43,947 bases of DNA, taken from the NCBI GenBank assembly GCA_011390785.1, contig JAABRR010000031.1:1-43947 (forward strand). Reading direction: 5' to 3'. The stretch's first letter is position 1. Every line of letters starts with the position of its first letter. Origin of the DNA: Sphingobacteriia bacterium. Its GTDB lineage: Bacteria > Bacteroidota > Bacteroidia > Bacteroidales > UBA7960. The notes below the pieces were generated by a model that made no database searches, was not told the DNA's origin, and saw only the letters and a program-made list of their open reading frames with translations. The position numbers and the translations under genes were made by a program. Of this stretch, positions 9,603 to 13,891 are shown one piece after another.

Positions 9603-10166
9603 TTAATTAAGTATCGGATCTGTGGGAAAGTTTGCCCATATGGCATAATCATTACCCAATTTTTTGAGTGTATTGGCCCAAAGGGTTTCAGCATTGTCTG
9701 CCAAAACACAATTTTGAGTTGCCTGGGTAACAATCCATGAGTTTTCGCCCATTTCTTTATTCAGTTGGCCTGCATCCCATCCTGAGTAACCAATAAAAAA
9801 TCTTACCTGAGAAGGGCTAACGAGTTTGAGATCTATCAATTCCATTATTTTTTTTATTTCTCCTCCCCAATAAAGATCTCCAAAAATATTGATGCTGCCA
9901 GGAATCTGGTCGCCCAGCGTATGAATATAAAAGAGCCTTTCCGGATGAACGGGGCCGCCAAGATAAAGGGGGAAATCTATTTCAGGGAAATCTTTTACCA
10001 CTTCATTTAACTTAAGGTGTATGGGTTTATTAACGATAAGTCCAAAAGTGCCTTCTTCGGTAGTATGCTCCACAAGCAATACAACACTCTTACTGAAGTA
10101 GAAGTCTCTCAGTGAAGGTTCGCTTATCAGAAGCCTGCCTTGCAATGGTTGTAATTTGCGGTTCAT
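9603..10166 (-). CDS. YqgE/AlgH family protein (DUF179)
   Basis: The product has 187 residues. The start LQPLQGRLLISEPSLRDFYFSKSVVLLVEH and the following GTFGLIVNKP are hallmark sequences of the UPF0301/YqgE family, and the GGPVHPERLFYIHTL segment near residues 91-105 completes it. The molecular role of the family is not settled; AlgH in Pseudomonas was described as a regulator of alginate. The gene is divergent from murL and convergent with the unknown secreted protein (15 bp between their ends). Confidence 0.93.
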   Translation of the reverse strand: MNRKLQPLQGRLLISEPSLRDFYFSKSVVLLVEHTTEEGTFGLIVNKPIHLKLNEVVKDFPEIDFPLYLGGPVHPERLFYIHTLGDQIPGSINIFGDLYWGGEIKKIMELIDLKLVSPSQVRFFIGYSGWDAGQLNKEMGENSWIVTQATQNCVLADNAETLWANTLKKLGNDYAIWANFPTDPILN

Positions 10167-10300: not shown

Positions 10301-11689
10301 ATGCAAGGCAACAATTCCAACACCTTTAAAAAGCTCAGAAAGAATTATCCTTTAATAACTTACGAGGGTTTTCATTGGCAGGCTCAAAATAGCATACTGT
10401 CTATAACCTATCATTTTAACATTTCAGGGAAGTATGATTTCTTCCCGAAATATGAAATTCCCCTTGCAGATCACAATCTTGATTCTTTCAATATTTCTTT
10501 TATCGATAGTATGATTTTTCATATTGGTATGGTTGAGTTAATCAGCTATTGGAAGTTGACTTGTTCTCCCAGAATATTGATAAAGCCTTTTCGGATAAAA
10601 GCATTTCAACAGGATTGGTGGCGAAAGCTTTATTTTTTGGGCCTGAGTGAGTTTTTTTACCTGAATGGCATTGACGTTGAAGAAAACTCTTTGCTAACTT
10701 TTGAGTTTGAAAAAATGTCGAAACTGGTAGGTCGGAATTTTTCGCTTGATTCAGGAAACGGAGTTTTGGTTCCGGTTGGCGGGGGAAAAGATTCTCTGGC
10801 AACATTGAGCGTTCTATCGGGTTTTTCCGAAGGCCAAATGGCTTTTGCTATCAATCCTGGTATGGCTACAGTAGAATCAGTTAAGATCGCTGGTCTGGAA
10901 AATAATTTCGTGAAAGTTGAGCGGATTCTTGATCCATTATTAATCACCTTAAACAACAAGGGTTTTCTTAACGGGCATACTCCTTTCTCGGCTCTGATAG
11001 CTTTTGTCAGTTCCTTTGTTGCTTCTTTATATGGTTATCGCTATATCGCATTATCAAATGAATCCAGCGCCAATGAAGCTACTATTCCAGGTACAAATAT
11101 AAATCATCAGTATTCCAAATCATTTGATTTTGAAAACAGCTTCCGTAAGTATATAGTTAATTTCATAACCAGAGATTTATACTATTTTAGCCTGTTACGG
11201 CCCTTAAATGAATTACAGATCGCTTCGCTTTTTTCTCAGAATCCCGGTTATTTTAAGATTTTCAGATCGTGCAATGTAGGCAGCAAAACCAATTCTTGGT
11301 GTTGTAAATGTTCAAAGTGCTTATTTACTTACATAATGTTATCCCCATTTTTAACGACTGAAATCCTTGTTTCCATTTTTGGCGAAAATTTACTTGAAAA
11401 AAAAACTCTGATTCCTTTGCTTGACCAGCTTACCGGAATCGCACCAGAAAAGCCCTTCGAATGTATTGGTACCATCGACGAGGTGAATTCAGCCCTGGGG
11501 TATCTGGCTTCAAAATATGCAGGAAAGGAATTACCTGCATTACTTAAACATCATCAAAAAGTTACTGAAAATATTATGTTTACCGGGCTTCCTAATCAGT
11601 TAATTAGCTGGAATGAGTGTCATAACCTTCATGATCAATTTGAAAAGTTGTTAAAAGATAAGCTTGGCATAGAAATTACTTCCCGATAA
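10301..11689 (+). CDS. murL: MurL-like UDP-MurNAc-L-Ala-L-Glu epimerase
   Basis: The product has 462 residues and no signal peptide. The N-terminal half lacks familiar motifs. A PP-loop ATP-pyrophosphatase motif follows, PVGGGKDSLATL (Gly160-Ser165), then ALSNESSANEA (250-260) and NINHQYSKSFDFE (266-278). A cysteine cluster CNVGSKTNSWCCKCSKC (Cys324, 334, 335, 337, 340) resembles the zinc site of QueC-like PP-loop enzymes. This combination fits MurL, described in Xanthomonas as the ATP-dependent epimerase that turns the L-Glu of UDP-MurNAc-L-Ala-L-Glu into D-Glu. The next gene, 8 bp downstream, is a MurD-like ligase, exactly the partner expected. The pairing makes the call strong; without it one would say only PP-loop protein. 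Confidence 0.82.
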   Translation: MQGNNSNTFKKLRKNYPLITYEGFHWQAQNSILSITYHFNISGKYDFFPKYEIPLADHNLDSFNISFIDSMIFHIGMVELISYWKLTCSPRILIKPFRIKAFQQDWWRKLYFLGLSEFFYLNGIDVEENSLLTFEFEKMSKLVGRNFSLDSGNGVLVPVGGGKDSLATLSVLSGFSEGQMAFAINPGMATVESVKIAGLENNFVKVERILDPLLITLNNKGFLNGHTPFSALIAFVSSFVASLYGYRYIALSNESSANEATIPGTNINHQYSKSFDFENSFRKYIVNFITRDLYYFSLLRPLNELQIASLFSQNPGYFKIFRSCNVGSKTNSWCCKCSKCLFTYIMLSPFLTTEILVSIFGENLLEKKTLIPLLDQLTGIAPEKPFECIGTIDEVNSALGYLASKYAGKELPALLKHHQKVTENIMFTGLPNQLISWNECHNLHDQFEKLLKDKLGIEITSR

Positions 11690-11697
11690 GATATTTT

Positions 11698-13095
11698 ATG
11701 ATAGAAAAATTCTTCAACGGTTTTTTTGGCCGGCAAAGCATTTGTTTGTTGGGTTTTGGGCGGGAAGGGAAATCTACTTTTGGCGCCTTGAGAAGATATT
11801 TGCCTGGCAATAAGATTATTATTGCTGATGTAAACGACCAGACAGAAAATAATTTTCAAAAAGAATTCGACCAAAAAGAGAATGTGGTGTTCTTTTGTGG
11901 CAAACATTATACATCTGGCTTGAAAGAAGCAGATTTGATCATCAAATCGCCCGGTGTATCTCTTAAATCGTTAAAAGAAGATGGAGTGACAGAGGAGTAC
12001 AATTATCTGTCTCAAACCGAGATTTTTTTAAGGCTTTTCAGGGAGCAGATTGTAGGCGTAACCGGCACAAAAGGAAAAAGCACAACAGTTAGTTTAATCT
12101 ATGCTATTCTTAAAAATGCTAACCGAAATGTTTTACTTGTTGGAAATATTGGCGTGCCGCCCTTCGATCTTTTAGATAAAATTACAGATGAAACCTCAAT
12201 TGTTTTTGAGATGAGTAGCCATCAGTTGCATACTGTTAAGCAGTCGCCGGGTATTGCTGTATTGCTCAATATTTTTCAGGATCACCTGGATCATTATGAC
12301 TCTTTTGAAGAATATCAGCAGGCAAAGCTTAATATTGCCCGGTGGCAAAAACAAGGTGATAAATTTATCTTTAATGCCGGAAATAATTTATTGAGCCAAT
12401 TGATCCTGGATATAAGAACCCCGGCAACTATTTATGGTCTAAATTCCAGAGATAATAAATATAACAGGGTTTTTTGTAAAGATGACGGGTTTTATATTGA
12501 GCATGGGCAGAAGTCTTATTTTCTGGAGGATATTTGTAAAGAAAGGCGTTTGCAAGGCGATCATAATCTTATAAACATTGGAGCAGCAGTTACTGCAGCT
12601 TTTGTTTTGGGTGTTTCTTCTGATGATATAAGAACTACCGTAGCATCCTTTTCCGGGTTACCTCACAGGCTCGAATTTGTAAGGGAATTAAGAGGTGTTC
12701 GCTACTACAACGATTCTATAAGCACTATACCGGAAGCAACCATAGAAGCTCTGAAAACATTTCAGAATGTAGGAACCCTTTTGCTGGGTGGCTTTGATAG
12801 GGGTATTGATTATTCAATACTTGTTGATTATTTGGTCGAAAATCCTGTTGAAAGTATCATTTTTACAGGAAGGGCAGGCAAAAGAATCAGGAAAGAATTT
12901 CTCTCTAAGGCATCTGTTAAATGCAAAATTGACATTATTCTCGTTGACGATTTTGAATCGGCTGTTAAAAAGGCCGTAGAAGTTTCTCTTCCTGGTAAAG
13001 TTTGTCTTCTGTCTCCGGCTGCTGCCAGTTATGATATGTTTAAGAATTTTGAAGAGAGGGGAGAAAAATTCAAACAGATGATTGTTGCCATTTAA
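11698..13095 (+). CDS. murD2: MurD-family ligase, probable UDP-MurNAc-L-Ala:L-Glu ligase (MurD2)
   Basis: The product has 465 residues with the three-domain Mur ligase plan. An N-terminal Rossmann-like part begins with ICLLGFGREGKS (15-26). The ATP loop is GTKGKST (123-129), followed by EMSSHQL (171-177) and the metal/substrate segment NIFQDHLDHY (191-200). The C-terminal domain begins with YNDSISTIPEATIEAL, where ordinary MurD has NDSKATN. Ordinary MurD adds D-Glu; the MurL-linked MurD2 adds L-Glu, later epimerised. The immediate coupling to the MurL-like gene is the reason for choosing MurD2. Whether a standard murD and glutamate racemase also exist cannot be seen here. Confidence 0.82.
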   Translation: MIEKFFNGFFGRQSICLLGFGREGKSTFGALRRYLPGNKIIIADVNDQTENNFQKEFDQKENVVFFCGKHYTSGLKEADLIIKSPGVSLKSLKEDGVTEEYNYLSQTEIFLRLFREQIVGVTGTKGKSTTVSLIYAILKNANRNVLLVGNIGVPPFDLLDKITDETSIVFEMSSHQLHTVKQSPGIAVLLNIFQDHLDHYDSFEEYQQAKLNIARWQKQGDKFIFNAGNNLLSQLILDIRTPATIYGLNSRDNKYNRVFCKDDGFYIEHGQKSYFLEDICKERRLQGDHNLINIGAAVTAAFVLGVSSDDIRTTVASFSGLPHRLEFVRELRGVRYYNDSISTIPEATIEALKTFQNVGTLLLGGFDRGIDYSILVDYLVENPVESIIFTGRAGKRIRKEFLSKASVKCKIDIILVDDFESAVKKAVEVSLPGKVCLLSPAAASYDMFKNFEERGEKFKQMIVAI

Positions 13096-13186: not shown

Positions 13187-13891
13187 TTATTGTTGAAAAG
13201 GTTTCTCATAGCTTCTTAGCAACGTTTTCAATACCTTTTGCGGTTCTCTGACAGATTTAATGGCATATTCAAAAAGCAACTCTTCTTTTTCATCGGAAGT
13301 GAGTTGCCAGGGGTAAGATGAATCTTTCAACCGCCCTGCAAGATGATACAAGCAAAGAGCCACCGAAACAGAAATATTGTAACTTTCAGTAAATCCATAA
13401 ATGGGGATTTTTACAAAAGCATCCGCATCTGCCAGGGCTTGTTCCGATAATCCGAAACCTTCATTACCAAAAACAAGGGCAGTTTTATGATCAATGGGCA
13501 GATCCTCGAGCAGGCAATCATTTTTATGCGGACTGGTAGCAATAATCCTGTATCCATTCTTTCTTAACTTTTTAAAGCAGGTAAGGGTATTGTAATCAGC
13601 ATGGTTGTATTTATAAATATTGATCCATTTATTTGAACCCACAACTATATCGGGGTTAATCTCGTAAGGATTATTATTTTCAATAACATAAAGGTCCTGA
13701 ATACCGGTAAGCTCGCAGGTTCGAATTACTGCACTGGCATTATGAGATTGGTAAATATCTTCCAGTACCACGGTTACATGGCGTGTTCTGTTACTAAGAA
13801 CTTCGTTAAACTTGTTCCATCTTTCTTCGGTTATCATTTTCTGAAGGTTTTCCAGCAGATAACGGCGCGTTTCTTTCGAATACTTTGTCAT
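13187..13891 (-). CDS. trmH: TrmH-type (SpoU) tRNA 2'-O-methyltransferase
   Basis: The product has 234 residues. SpoU motif 1 is NASAVIRTCE (51-60, with Arg57), motif 2 FGNEGFGLS (141-149) and motif 3 IPIYGFTESYNISVSVAL (162-179), which form the knotted SAM-binding fold. Length and the N-terminal extension match TrmH, which methylates Gm18 in the D-loop of tRNAs. The start ATG overlaps the stop of the arginase-family gene (ATGA), so the two are translationally coupled. Another SpoU target is possible. Confidence 0.9.
   Translation of the reverse strand: MTKYSKETRRYLLENLQKMITEERWNKFNEVLSNRTRHVTVVLEDIYQSHNASAVIRTCELTGIQDLYVIENNNPYEINPDIVVGSNKWINIYKYNHADYNTLTCFKKLRKNGYRIIATSPHKNDCLLEDLPIDHKTALVFGNEGFGLSEQALADADAFVKIPIYGFTESYNISVSVALCLYHLAGRLKDSSYPWQLTSDEKEELLFEYAIKSVREPQKVLKTLLRSYEKPFQQ

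Follow-up and report, generated by a model that had tools for sequence, protein, structure and literature searches.

The MurL-MurD2 pair of a Bacteroidales genome as a probable route to cell-wall D-glutamate

The closest described systems to the locus considered here are the adjacent murL and murD2 genes of Xanthomonas. For the pair XOO_1319/XOO_1320, described by Feng et al. (2017), the passages of two reviews on which we draw report both reactions, a need for ATP, AMP as a product, and operation in one direction only (PMC8788868, PMC5808125). Both the reactions and the pairing of the two genes are therefore already known from Xanthomonas, and the route is described, in those parts of PMC8788868, as limited to a few genera of Proteobacteria and actinobacteria. 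We examined a pair of this type in contig JAABRR010000031.1 (43,947 nucleotides; hereafter the window, meaning the whole stretch of DNA that was analyzed), from the Sphingobacteriia bacterium assembly GCA_011390785.1, a member of the order Bacteroidales. We conclude, with a probability of about 0.88, that this bacterium makes its cell-wall D-glutamate through MurL and MurD2, with L-glutamate first attached and then epimerized, and that the pair replaces glutamate racemase (MurI). MurD2 would attach L-glutamate and MurL would flip it afterwards to D-glutamate; judging from their sequences, the two enzymes would carry out the same reactions as the Xanthomonas pair.

A first-pass annotation of the window had described a PP-loop protein with a GGGKDS motif, a SNESSANE motif, and a cysteine cluster from Cys324 to Cys340, followed 8 bp later by a MurD-like ligase whose NDSKATN box has become NDSIST. 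Both open reading frames (ORFs) were located, with 8 bp between the murL stop and the murD2 ATG, as were all of the motifs and cysteines 324, 334, 337, and 340:

10301..11689, + strand: MurL homologue gene, ORF of 462 amino acids (aa)
10778..10795, + strand: GGGKDS PP-loop motif, MurL aa 160-165
11054..11077, + strand: SNESSANE motif, MurL aa 252-259
11270..11320, + strand: four-cysteine cluster C324-x9-C334-x2-C337-x2-C340 in MurL, probable metal site
11698..13095, + strand: MurD-like ligase (MurD2) gene, ORF of 465 aa
12280..12282, + strand: MurD2 Asp195, at the site of D182 in E. coli MurD; X. sacchari MurD2 has Glu here
12709..12726, + strand: NDSIST box, MurD2 aa 338-343; Ile341 is equivalent to K319 of E. 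coli MurD NDSKAT
12799..12801, + strand: MurD2 Arg368, equivalent to E. coli MurD K348

Identity of the two proteins

The NCBIfam MurL model NF041275 matched the window MurL over 402 of 447 model positions (E value, 1.3e-71; 241 bits). Identity to the annotated MurL of X. sacchari, taken from a megaplasmid record with annotated adjacent murL and murD, was 28.9% over 439 aligned positions, and the motifs were common to both. In a comparison of 11 MurL sequences (Bacteroidota, Pseudobutyrivibrio, Xanthomonas, and Pseudonocardia), the invariant residues included GGG160-162, D164, S165, N253, E254, S256, A257, N268-Q270, K273, C324, C334, C337, C340, and KPF384-386. A scan of named genomes yielded at least 587 MurL stretches, of which at least 575 were confirmed; counts of loci given below use the best 80 of these. 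In an alignment of the window MurL with 38 of the best 80, GGGKDS was kept in 39/39 rows, as was the C-x9-C-x2-C-x2-C spacing. The MurLs of X. sacchari and Pseudonocardia have the same four cysteines with a longer first gap, and in that of Pseudonocardia the Lys of GGGKDS is Arg. This four-cysteine cluster is probably a metal site, either structural or catalytic.

No Pfam family, QueC included, matched the window MurL, and a PADLOC search returned nothing useful for it. A structure model built from the 39-row alignment had a predicted local distance difference test score (pLDDT) of 90.9 and a predicted template modeling score (pTM) of 0.91. Foldseek matched this model mostly to PP-loop enzymes, with QatC (9y02; E value, 4e-4) at the top, followed by TtuA and QueC (3bl5; probability, 1.00; template modeling [TM] score, 0.57 on the target), although one match only fell below an E value of 0.001 and TM scores normalized by the MurL model did not exceed 0.37. 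Argininosuccinate synthases, Cap9, and NMN synthetase were also matched, with low-probability Rossmann oxidoreductases interspersed. A PDB profile search found TtuA as well (E value, 9e-4), over the PP-loop segment only. Hence MurL is predicted to fold like the PP-loop enzymes QatC, TtuA, and QueC, and the SGGxDS-type loop together with the modeled fold places it in the PP-loop ATP-pyrophosphatase superfamily. Members of this superfamily convert ATP to AMP and pyrophosphate, and QueC combines a cysteine site with carboxylate activation. If the PP-loop of MurL plays the corresponding role, it would adenylate the substrate, and such chemistry fits both the published AMP release and the published proposal that MurL acts through an adenylate (PMC8788868, PMC5808125; passages). 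The same passages of these 2021 and 2018 reviews describe MurL as having no known conserved domains, and among open-licence PMC papers we found none treating QueC together with MurL. The predicted PP-loop fold supplies a concrete chemical hypothesis for MurL.

The ligase scored 351 bits against the NCBIfam murD model TIGR01087. A 39-protein MurD tree (19 MurD2 and 20 canonical rows, E. coli among the latter) grouped it with 17 other MurD2s from Bacteroidota and Pseudobutyrivibrio and with that of X. sacchari (support, 100/99); both X. sacchari and E. coli sit on long branches. Its nearest MurD2 in the tree is that of genome G538 (locus L144), from the same family, which has Glu at position 182 (E. 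coli numbering). Where canonical MurD has Lys at 319 and 348 and an NDSKAT box, the window ligase has Ile and Arg, and these two residues were also found in X. sacchari and in 63/63 MurD2s of the best 80 loci, counted from long, stop-free matches among the 66 loci that bear a MurD2. Position 182 was Glu in 61 of the 63 and Asp in 2 (L079 and L128, both adjoining a MurL). X. sacchari MurD2 has Ile, Arg, and Glu at 319, 348, and 182, and Glu stood at 182 in 27/27 readable MurD2s from relatives in the order; in the 30-row MurD2 reading, row L160 was read by motif instead (NDSIAT plus DRG), without position 182. According to passages of PMC8788868, R358 and E197 set the choice of L-Glu in X. oryzae MurD2, and the K319T change lets E. 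coli MurD use L-Glu. With both proteins aligned to the X. sacchari pair and the ligase grouping with MurD2, apart from canonical MurD, the Xanthomonas-like arrangement proposed in the first-pass annotation was borne out.

Glutamate racemase and the distribution of MurL

The assembly comprises 4.82 Mb in 158 contigs, with completeness of 100 and contamination of 2.94%. A profile search of the genome for PF01177 (the MurI superfamily) gave 0 matches, whereas the same search was positive in 10 of 14 control genomes, and a search for TIGR00067 (glutamate racemase) also gave 0 matches. Three class IV aminotransferases were present: an IlvE over its cut-off and two proteins below every cut-off, one PabC-like and the other (L009) similar to D-amino-acid transaminase (D-AAT) and IlvE. 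The latter reached 92 bits to the D-AAT model, whose cut-off is 277, so that the genome has no D-AAT over the family cut-off. Neither a racemase nor a transaminase of the usual kind was therefore found, as expected of an alternative D-glutamate route, with the weak L009 remaining. Seven Mur-ligase middle domains were found, those of the window MurD2, MurE, MurC, MurF, a MurF-Alr fusion, a FolC-like protein, and a canonical MurD (MurE, MurC, and the FolC-like protein were assigned by reading the sequence); we count MurC, MurE, MurF, and MurF-Alr in favor of the route. The genome thus has two proteins of the MurF type (L002 and L005), one of them MurF by itself and the other fused to alanine racemase.

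The canonical MurD (L003) sits between mraY and ftsW in the division and cell wall (dcw) cluster and has Lys at 319 and 348. D182, K319, and K348 are kept in this protein and in 32 canonical MurDs of other MurL genomes. The suggestion that the bacterium may not need a glutamate racemase thus held as far as MurI and D-AAT are concerned, but a standard murD is present and retained, and the pair is no simple one-ligase replacement.

We sampled the order evenly, with 198 genomes. MurL was found in 67 of them (at least 206 bits; lowest, 203.6 bits in G426) and MurI over its cut-off in 120; no genome had both and 11 had neither. Among these 11, G446 has a MurL interrupted where its contig ends, a short fragment was found in G468, and the other nine show no trace. 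D-AAT over the cut-off occurred in 2/198 genomes, both with MurI, and in 0/67 MurL genomes. In a tree of 96 canonical MurDs (from 33 MurL genomes, 55 of the 120 MurI genomes, and 8 genomes with neither), the MurL rows and two of the rows with neither fell into one group (support, 97), and a single change between MurL and MurI was needed when the "neither" rows were set aside. Since the MurL genomes form one clade, about one ancient switch is indicated and not many independent events. We therefore rejected the idea that independent losses of MurI prove the function; the Fisher value of 1.2e-41 does not measure independent events.

The pathway had been annotated as best known from Proteobacteria and seen in one Bacteroidota genome. 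This view needs amending: with MurL in a third of the order sample, the window is no isolated oddity, and the route is clade-wide. A spread over all Bacteroidota was likewise rejected, as only 3 of 395 genomes in a phylum sample (which holds few members of the order of the window) matched; one was that of the window, with 241 bits, and the others gave fragments of 20 to 22 bits in frames of about 800 aa. The best 80 MurL loci carry Bacteroidota titles except for two Pseudobutyrivibrio and one "uncultured bacterium," and MurD2 directly follows MurL in 66 of them. Loci with no MurD2 include L057, L067, L087, L088, L104, L115, L122, and L126, some of which have 6 kb of sequence downstream and several of which are from rumen Bacteroidales.

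MurL and MurD2 occupy a single ORF in G472 (L031; 885 aa), G499 (L039; 949 aa), and G574 (C6:2607-5033; 921 aa, judged from frame length). Adjacent MurL-MurD2 pairs also occur in Pseudobutyrivibrio xylanivorans DSM 14809 (L079:6001-8647), where the flanking genes read as Ddl- and MurF-like, and in a Pseudobutyrivibrio metagenome-assembled genome (Bacillota; L114). The two Pseudobutyrivibrio MurLs are 45 to 46% identical to that of the window (46% for DSM 14809), and the pair there is probably a product of horizontal transfer. A MurL homologue on a Pseudonocardia plasmid (L050:3953-5347) has no murD neighbor and has integrases alongside.

The pair in the window is flanked by two genes whose names are our presumption:

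9603..10166, - strand: presumed YqgE-like gene, divergent neighbor of murL
13187..13891, - strand: presumed TrmH/SpoU-like RNA methyltransferase gene after murD2

In 68 of the best 80 loci, a YqgE-like homologue precedes murL in divergent orientation, and a TrmH/SpoU-like homologue is present in 16 of the 80. The same two kinds of gene enclose a relic of the pair in G468, a genome that is 99% complete and lies inside the MurL clade: there, the locus is down to 28 aa from the end of MurL and then 39 aa from the end of MurD2 (L300:2392-2564), and a full canonical MurD is retained. The loss of MurL and MurD2 together in this genome fits one joint function.

A headless MurD in the dcw cluster

The 67 MurL genomes differ in what they keep of canonical MurD. 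A full protein stands beside MurD2 in 37 (33 read, three split at contig ends, and G491 by count only), the C-terminal part alone is found in 26, and 4 have neither form, two of which have mraY without MurD and two of which yielded no dcw cluster. Among the 120 MurI genomes, by comparison, 116 had one MurD match at an E value of 1e-50, G547 had two, and G411, G562, and G579 had none. The C-terminal part, for which we use the name MurD-C, forms an intact ORF of 176 to 187 aa directly after mraY in 26/26 headless genomes, with the other two MurD domains gone. It covers positions ∼260 to 440 of the MurD profile and so is without the ATP-binding loop. In 23 of the 26, the full-length MurD found was of the MurD2 type. 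The loci are as follows:

MurD-C loci: L201-L216, L220, L222-L225, L227-L231

ftsW follows MurD-C in 16/16 loci of one set and 7/10 of the other, with no FtsW match in the remaining three stretches, and full MurD lies between mraY and ftsW in 31/31 MurL genomes of the MraY set described below. Full MurDs have a Met at the MurD-C start site in 32 of 33 MurL genomes and 12 of 14 MurI genomes. In six congeneric pairs of MurD-C, the proportion of nonsynonymous differences (pN) was 0.16 to 0.34 and that of synonymous differences (pS) was 0.72 to 0.86, with synonymous sites saturated; a seventh, more distant pair gave a pN of 0.51 and a pS of 0.70. These values, from a simple Nei-Gojobori (NG86) count with no formal test, are a sign of protein-level constraint on MurD-C. 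Some MurD-C proteins (G574) have neither a Pfam match nor an NDSKAT box, so the former active site is no longer constrained.

We used MraY to follow these states across the clade, with 58 proteins from MurL genomes (31 with full MurD, 25 with the stump, and 2 with none; G399 was left out because its mraY is cut). This tree requires 11 to 12 changes between full and headless states, at least 6 to 7 of them on well-supported branches, and well-supported sisters in opposite states include G551/G443, G587/G487, G568/G466, G540/G428, and the window's genome with G538 and G426. Those two closest MraY relatives, from the same family, carry MurD-C, while the window's genome, with a full canonical MurD beside MurD2, is in the two-ligase state. 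With no racemase, this canonical MurD may depend on salvaged D-glutamate or on an unrecognized supply, or it may act at a low level on another substrate. A tree of the MurD C-terminal domain (using 14 of the 55 MurI rows) was poorly resolved and needed 8 MurD-C changes, of which just 1 was forced by well-supported branches. Repeated truncation is therefore read from the MraY tree and is not shown by the C-domain tree by itself. Two histories would fit: repeated beheading of murD that spared the same domain each time, or recombination that brought back full copies.

We lean, by a modest degree, toward the explanation that after MurL-MurD2 took over, dcw murD repeatedly lost its UDP- and ATP-binding domains, with the C-terminal domain kept as a free-standing, noncatalytic part. 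MurD-C, being no ligase, would then dock or regulate the MraY-MurG-FtsW assembly or partner MurD2 or MurL. If so, MurD-C reveals a second, nonenzymatic job of MurD.

Two further genomes carry MurD-C or a similar protein in unusual settings. G409 (L226 and L302; 98% complete; 10 contigs) has a MurD-C-like ORF of 170 aa in the dcw cluster, MurL, MurI, and full MurD were not found in it, and no murC was seen between murG and the next gene. In G448 (L220; 92% complete), MurL has an in-frame TAA, MurD-C is present, and there is no full-length MurD of either kind at an E value of 1e-40; this state would reflect either an assembly gap or decay. The "truncated MurD" mentioned in a passage of PMC12208494 is a two-hybrid construct covering a different region of MurD.

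Alternatives and comparison with known systems

Several observations count against a MurL-MurD2 route in the window. The score of 241 bits for MurL is far below 700, the Xanthomonadales equivalog cut-off of NF041275. No MurD2 lies nearby in 14 of the best 80 MurL loci. The mutual exclusion of MurL and MurI belongs to one clade and is hence one event. A PF01177 protein occurs in 14/67 MurL genomes, all of them under the MurI cut-off; we rejected a hidden MurI in these genomes, as 10 of the 14 matched TIGR00067 weakly, below its cut-off, and 4 did not match it. A weak D-AAT-like aminotransferase (E values up to 1e-20) is found in 19/67 MurL genomes, that of the window included. Canonical MurD, with all checked catalytic residues kept, persists here and in roughly half of the genomes with MurL, a surprising retention if D-glutamate is not made. 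Lastly, the window MurD2 has Asp at position 182, the site where a substitution changed the specificity of the X. oryzae enzyme, and a strict preference for L-glutamate is accordingly less certain.

The likeliest alternative concerns the retained MurD: canonical MurD would be the housekeeping ligase, its D-glutamate coming from an unrecognized source (L009 or another class IV aminotransferase, or scavenging), and MurL-MurD2 would be a back-up or condition-specific system. The enzyme is intact in this genome, L009 does reach 92 bits to the D-AAT model (below the cut-off of 277), and the collapse of murL-murD2 in the 99%-complete G468, with canonical MurD kept, indicates that this MurD can suffice as the ligase somewhere in the clade. 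However, the headless genomes in which MurD2 is the full-length MurD (23 of 26) argue that the pair can do the housekeeping work, and even weak D-AAT-like matches occur in no more than 19 of the 67 MurL genomes. We consider this alternative unlikely, if worth keeping in mind.

Less probable still is that the window MurD2 has drifted to dual or D-glutamate specificity through Asp195, so that MurL is needed only in part. Its nearest MurD2, from the same family, has Glu at this site, and E197D by itself shifted the specificity of X. oryzae MurD2 (PMC8788868, in the passages used). On the other hand, Ile341 and Arg368 are retained, Asp also occurs in the two other MurL-adjoining MurD2s (L079 and L128), and no MurI is present to supply D-glutamate. 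That the contig reflects contamination or recently inserted foreign DNA, with the pair saying nothing about the genome, is very improbable despite the 158 contigs and 2.94% estimated contamination, given a divergent YqgE-like neighbor common to 68 of 80 loci that are nearly all from Bacteroidota, a nearest MurD2 from the same family, and the lack of MurI from the whole genome.

The synthesis of D-glutamate through MurL and MurD2 thus remains our preferred reading. Neither an occurrence of the pair in Bacteroidota nor a headless dcw MurD turned up in the open-licence PMC papers searched, and the passages of PMC5808125 contain no mention of "Bacteroid-." The supply of D-glutamate is one of the targets of narrow-spectrum antibacterials. 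In this Bacteroidales clade, which is large and for the most part uncultured, the MurL route would be the norm, with a further occurrence in a cultured Pseudobutyrivibrio. The clade also amounts to a natural experiment, having genomes with both MurDs, genomes with MurD2 and a headless MurD, and one genus with the pair gone. It can thus be used to test why canonical MurD persists where there is no racemase, and whether the last domain of MurD does anything beyond catalysis.

Compared with described proteins, the window MurL shares with TtuA and with QueC-, QatC-, and Cap9-type proteins a PP-loop fold, as judged by Foldseek, but it has extra N- and C-terminal parts, and sequence kinship was seen only in the PP-loop segment. 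The window MurD2 resembles canonical MurD (TIGR01087, E. coli) in its Mur ligase fold and in residues K115, E157, H183, K198, and R302, and differs from it in having Ile and Arg for Lys319 and Lys348 and in belonging to a separate clade with full support. With the Xanthomonas pathway, the window shares the adjacent murL-murD2 order, the MurL motifs and four cysteines, the Ile and Arg of MurD2 at 319 and 348, and the lack of MurI. Unlike Xanthomonas, it belongs to another phylum, its MurL is 28.9% identical, and its MurD2 has Asp at 182; further, the Bacteroidales keep canonical dcw MurD or its last domain, and some relatives have MurL and MurD2 fused in a single ORF.

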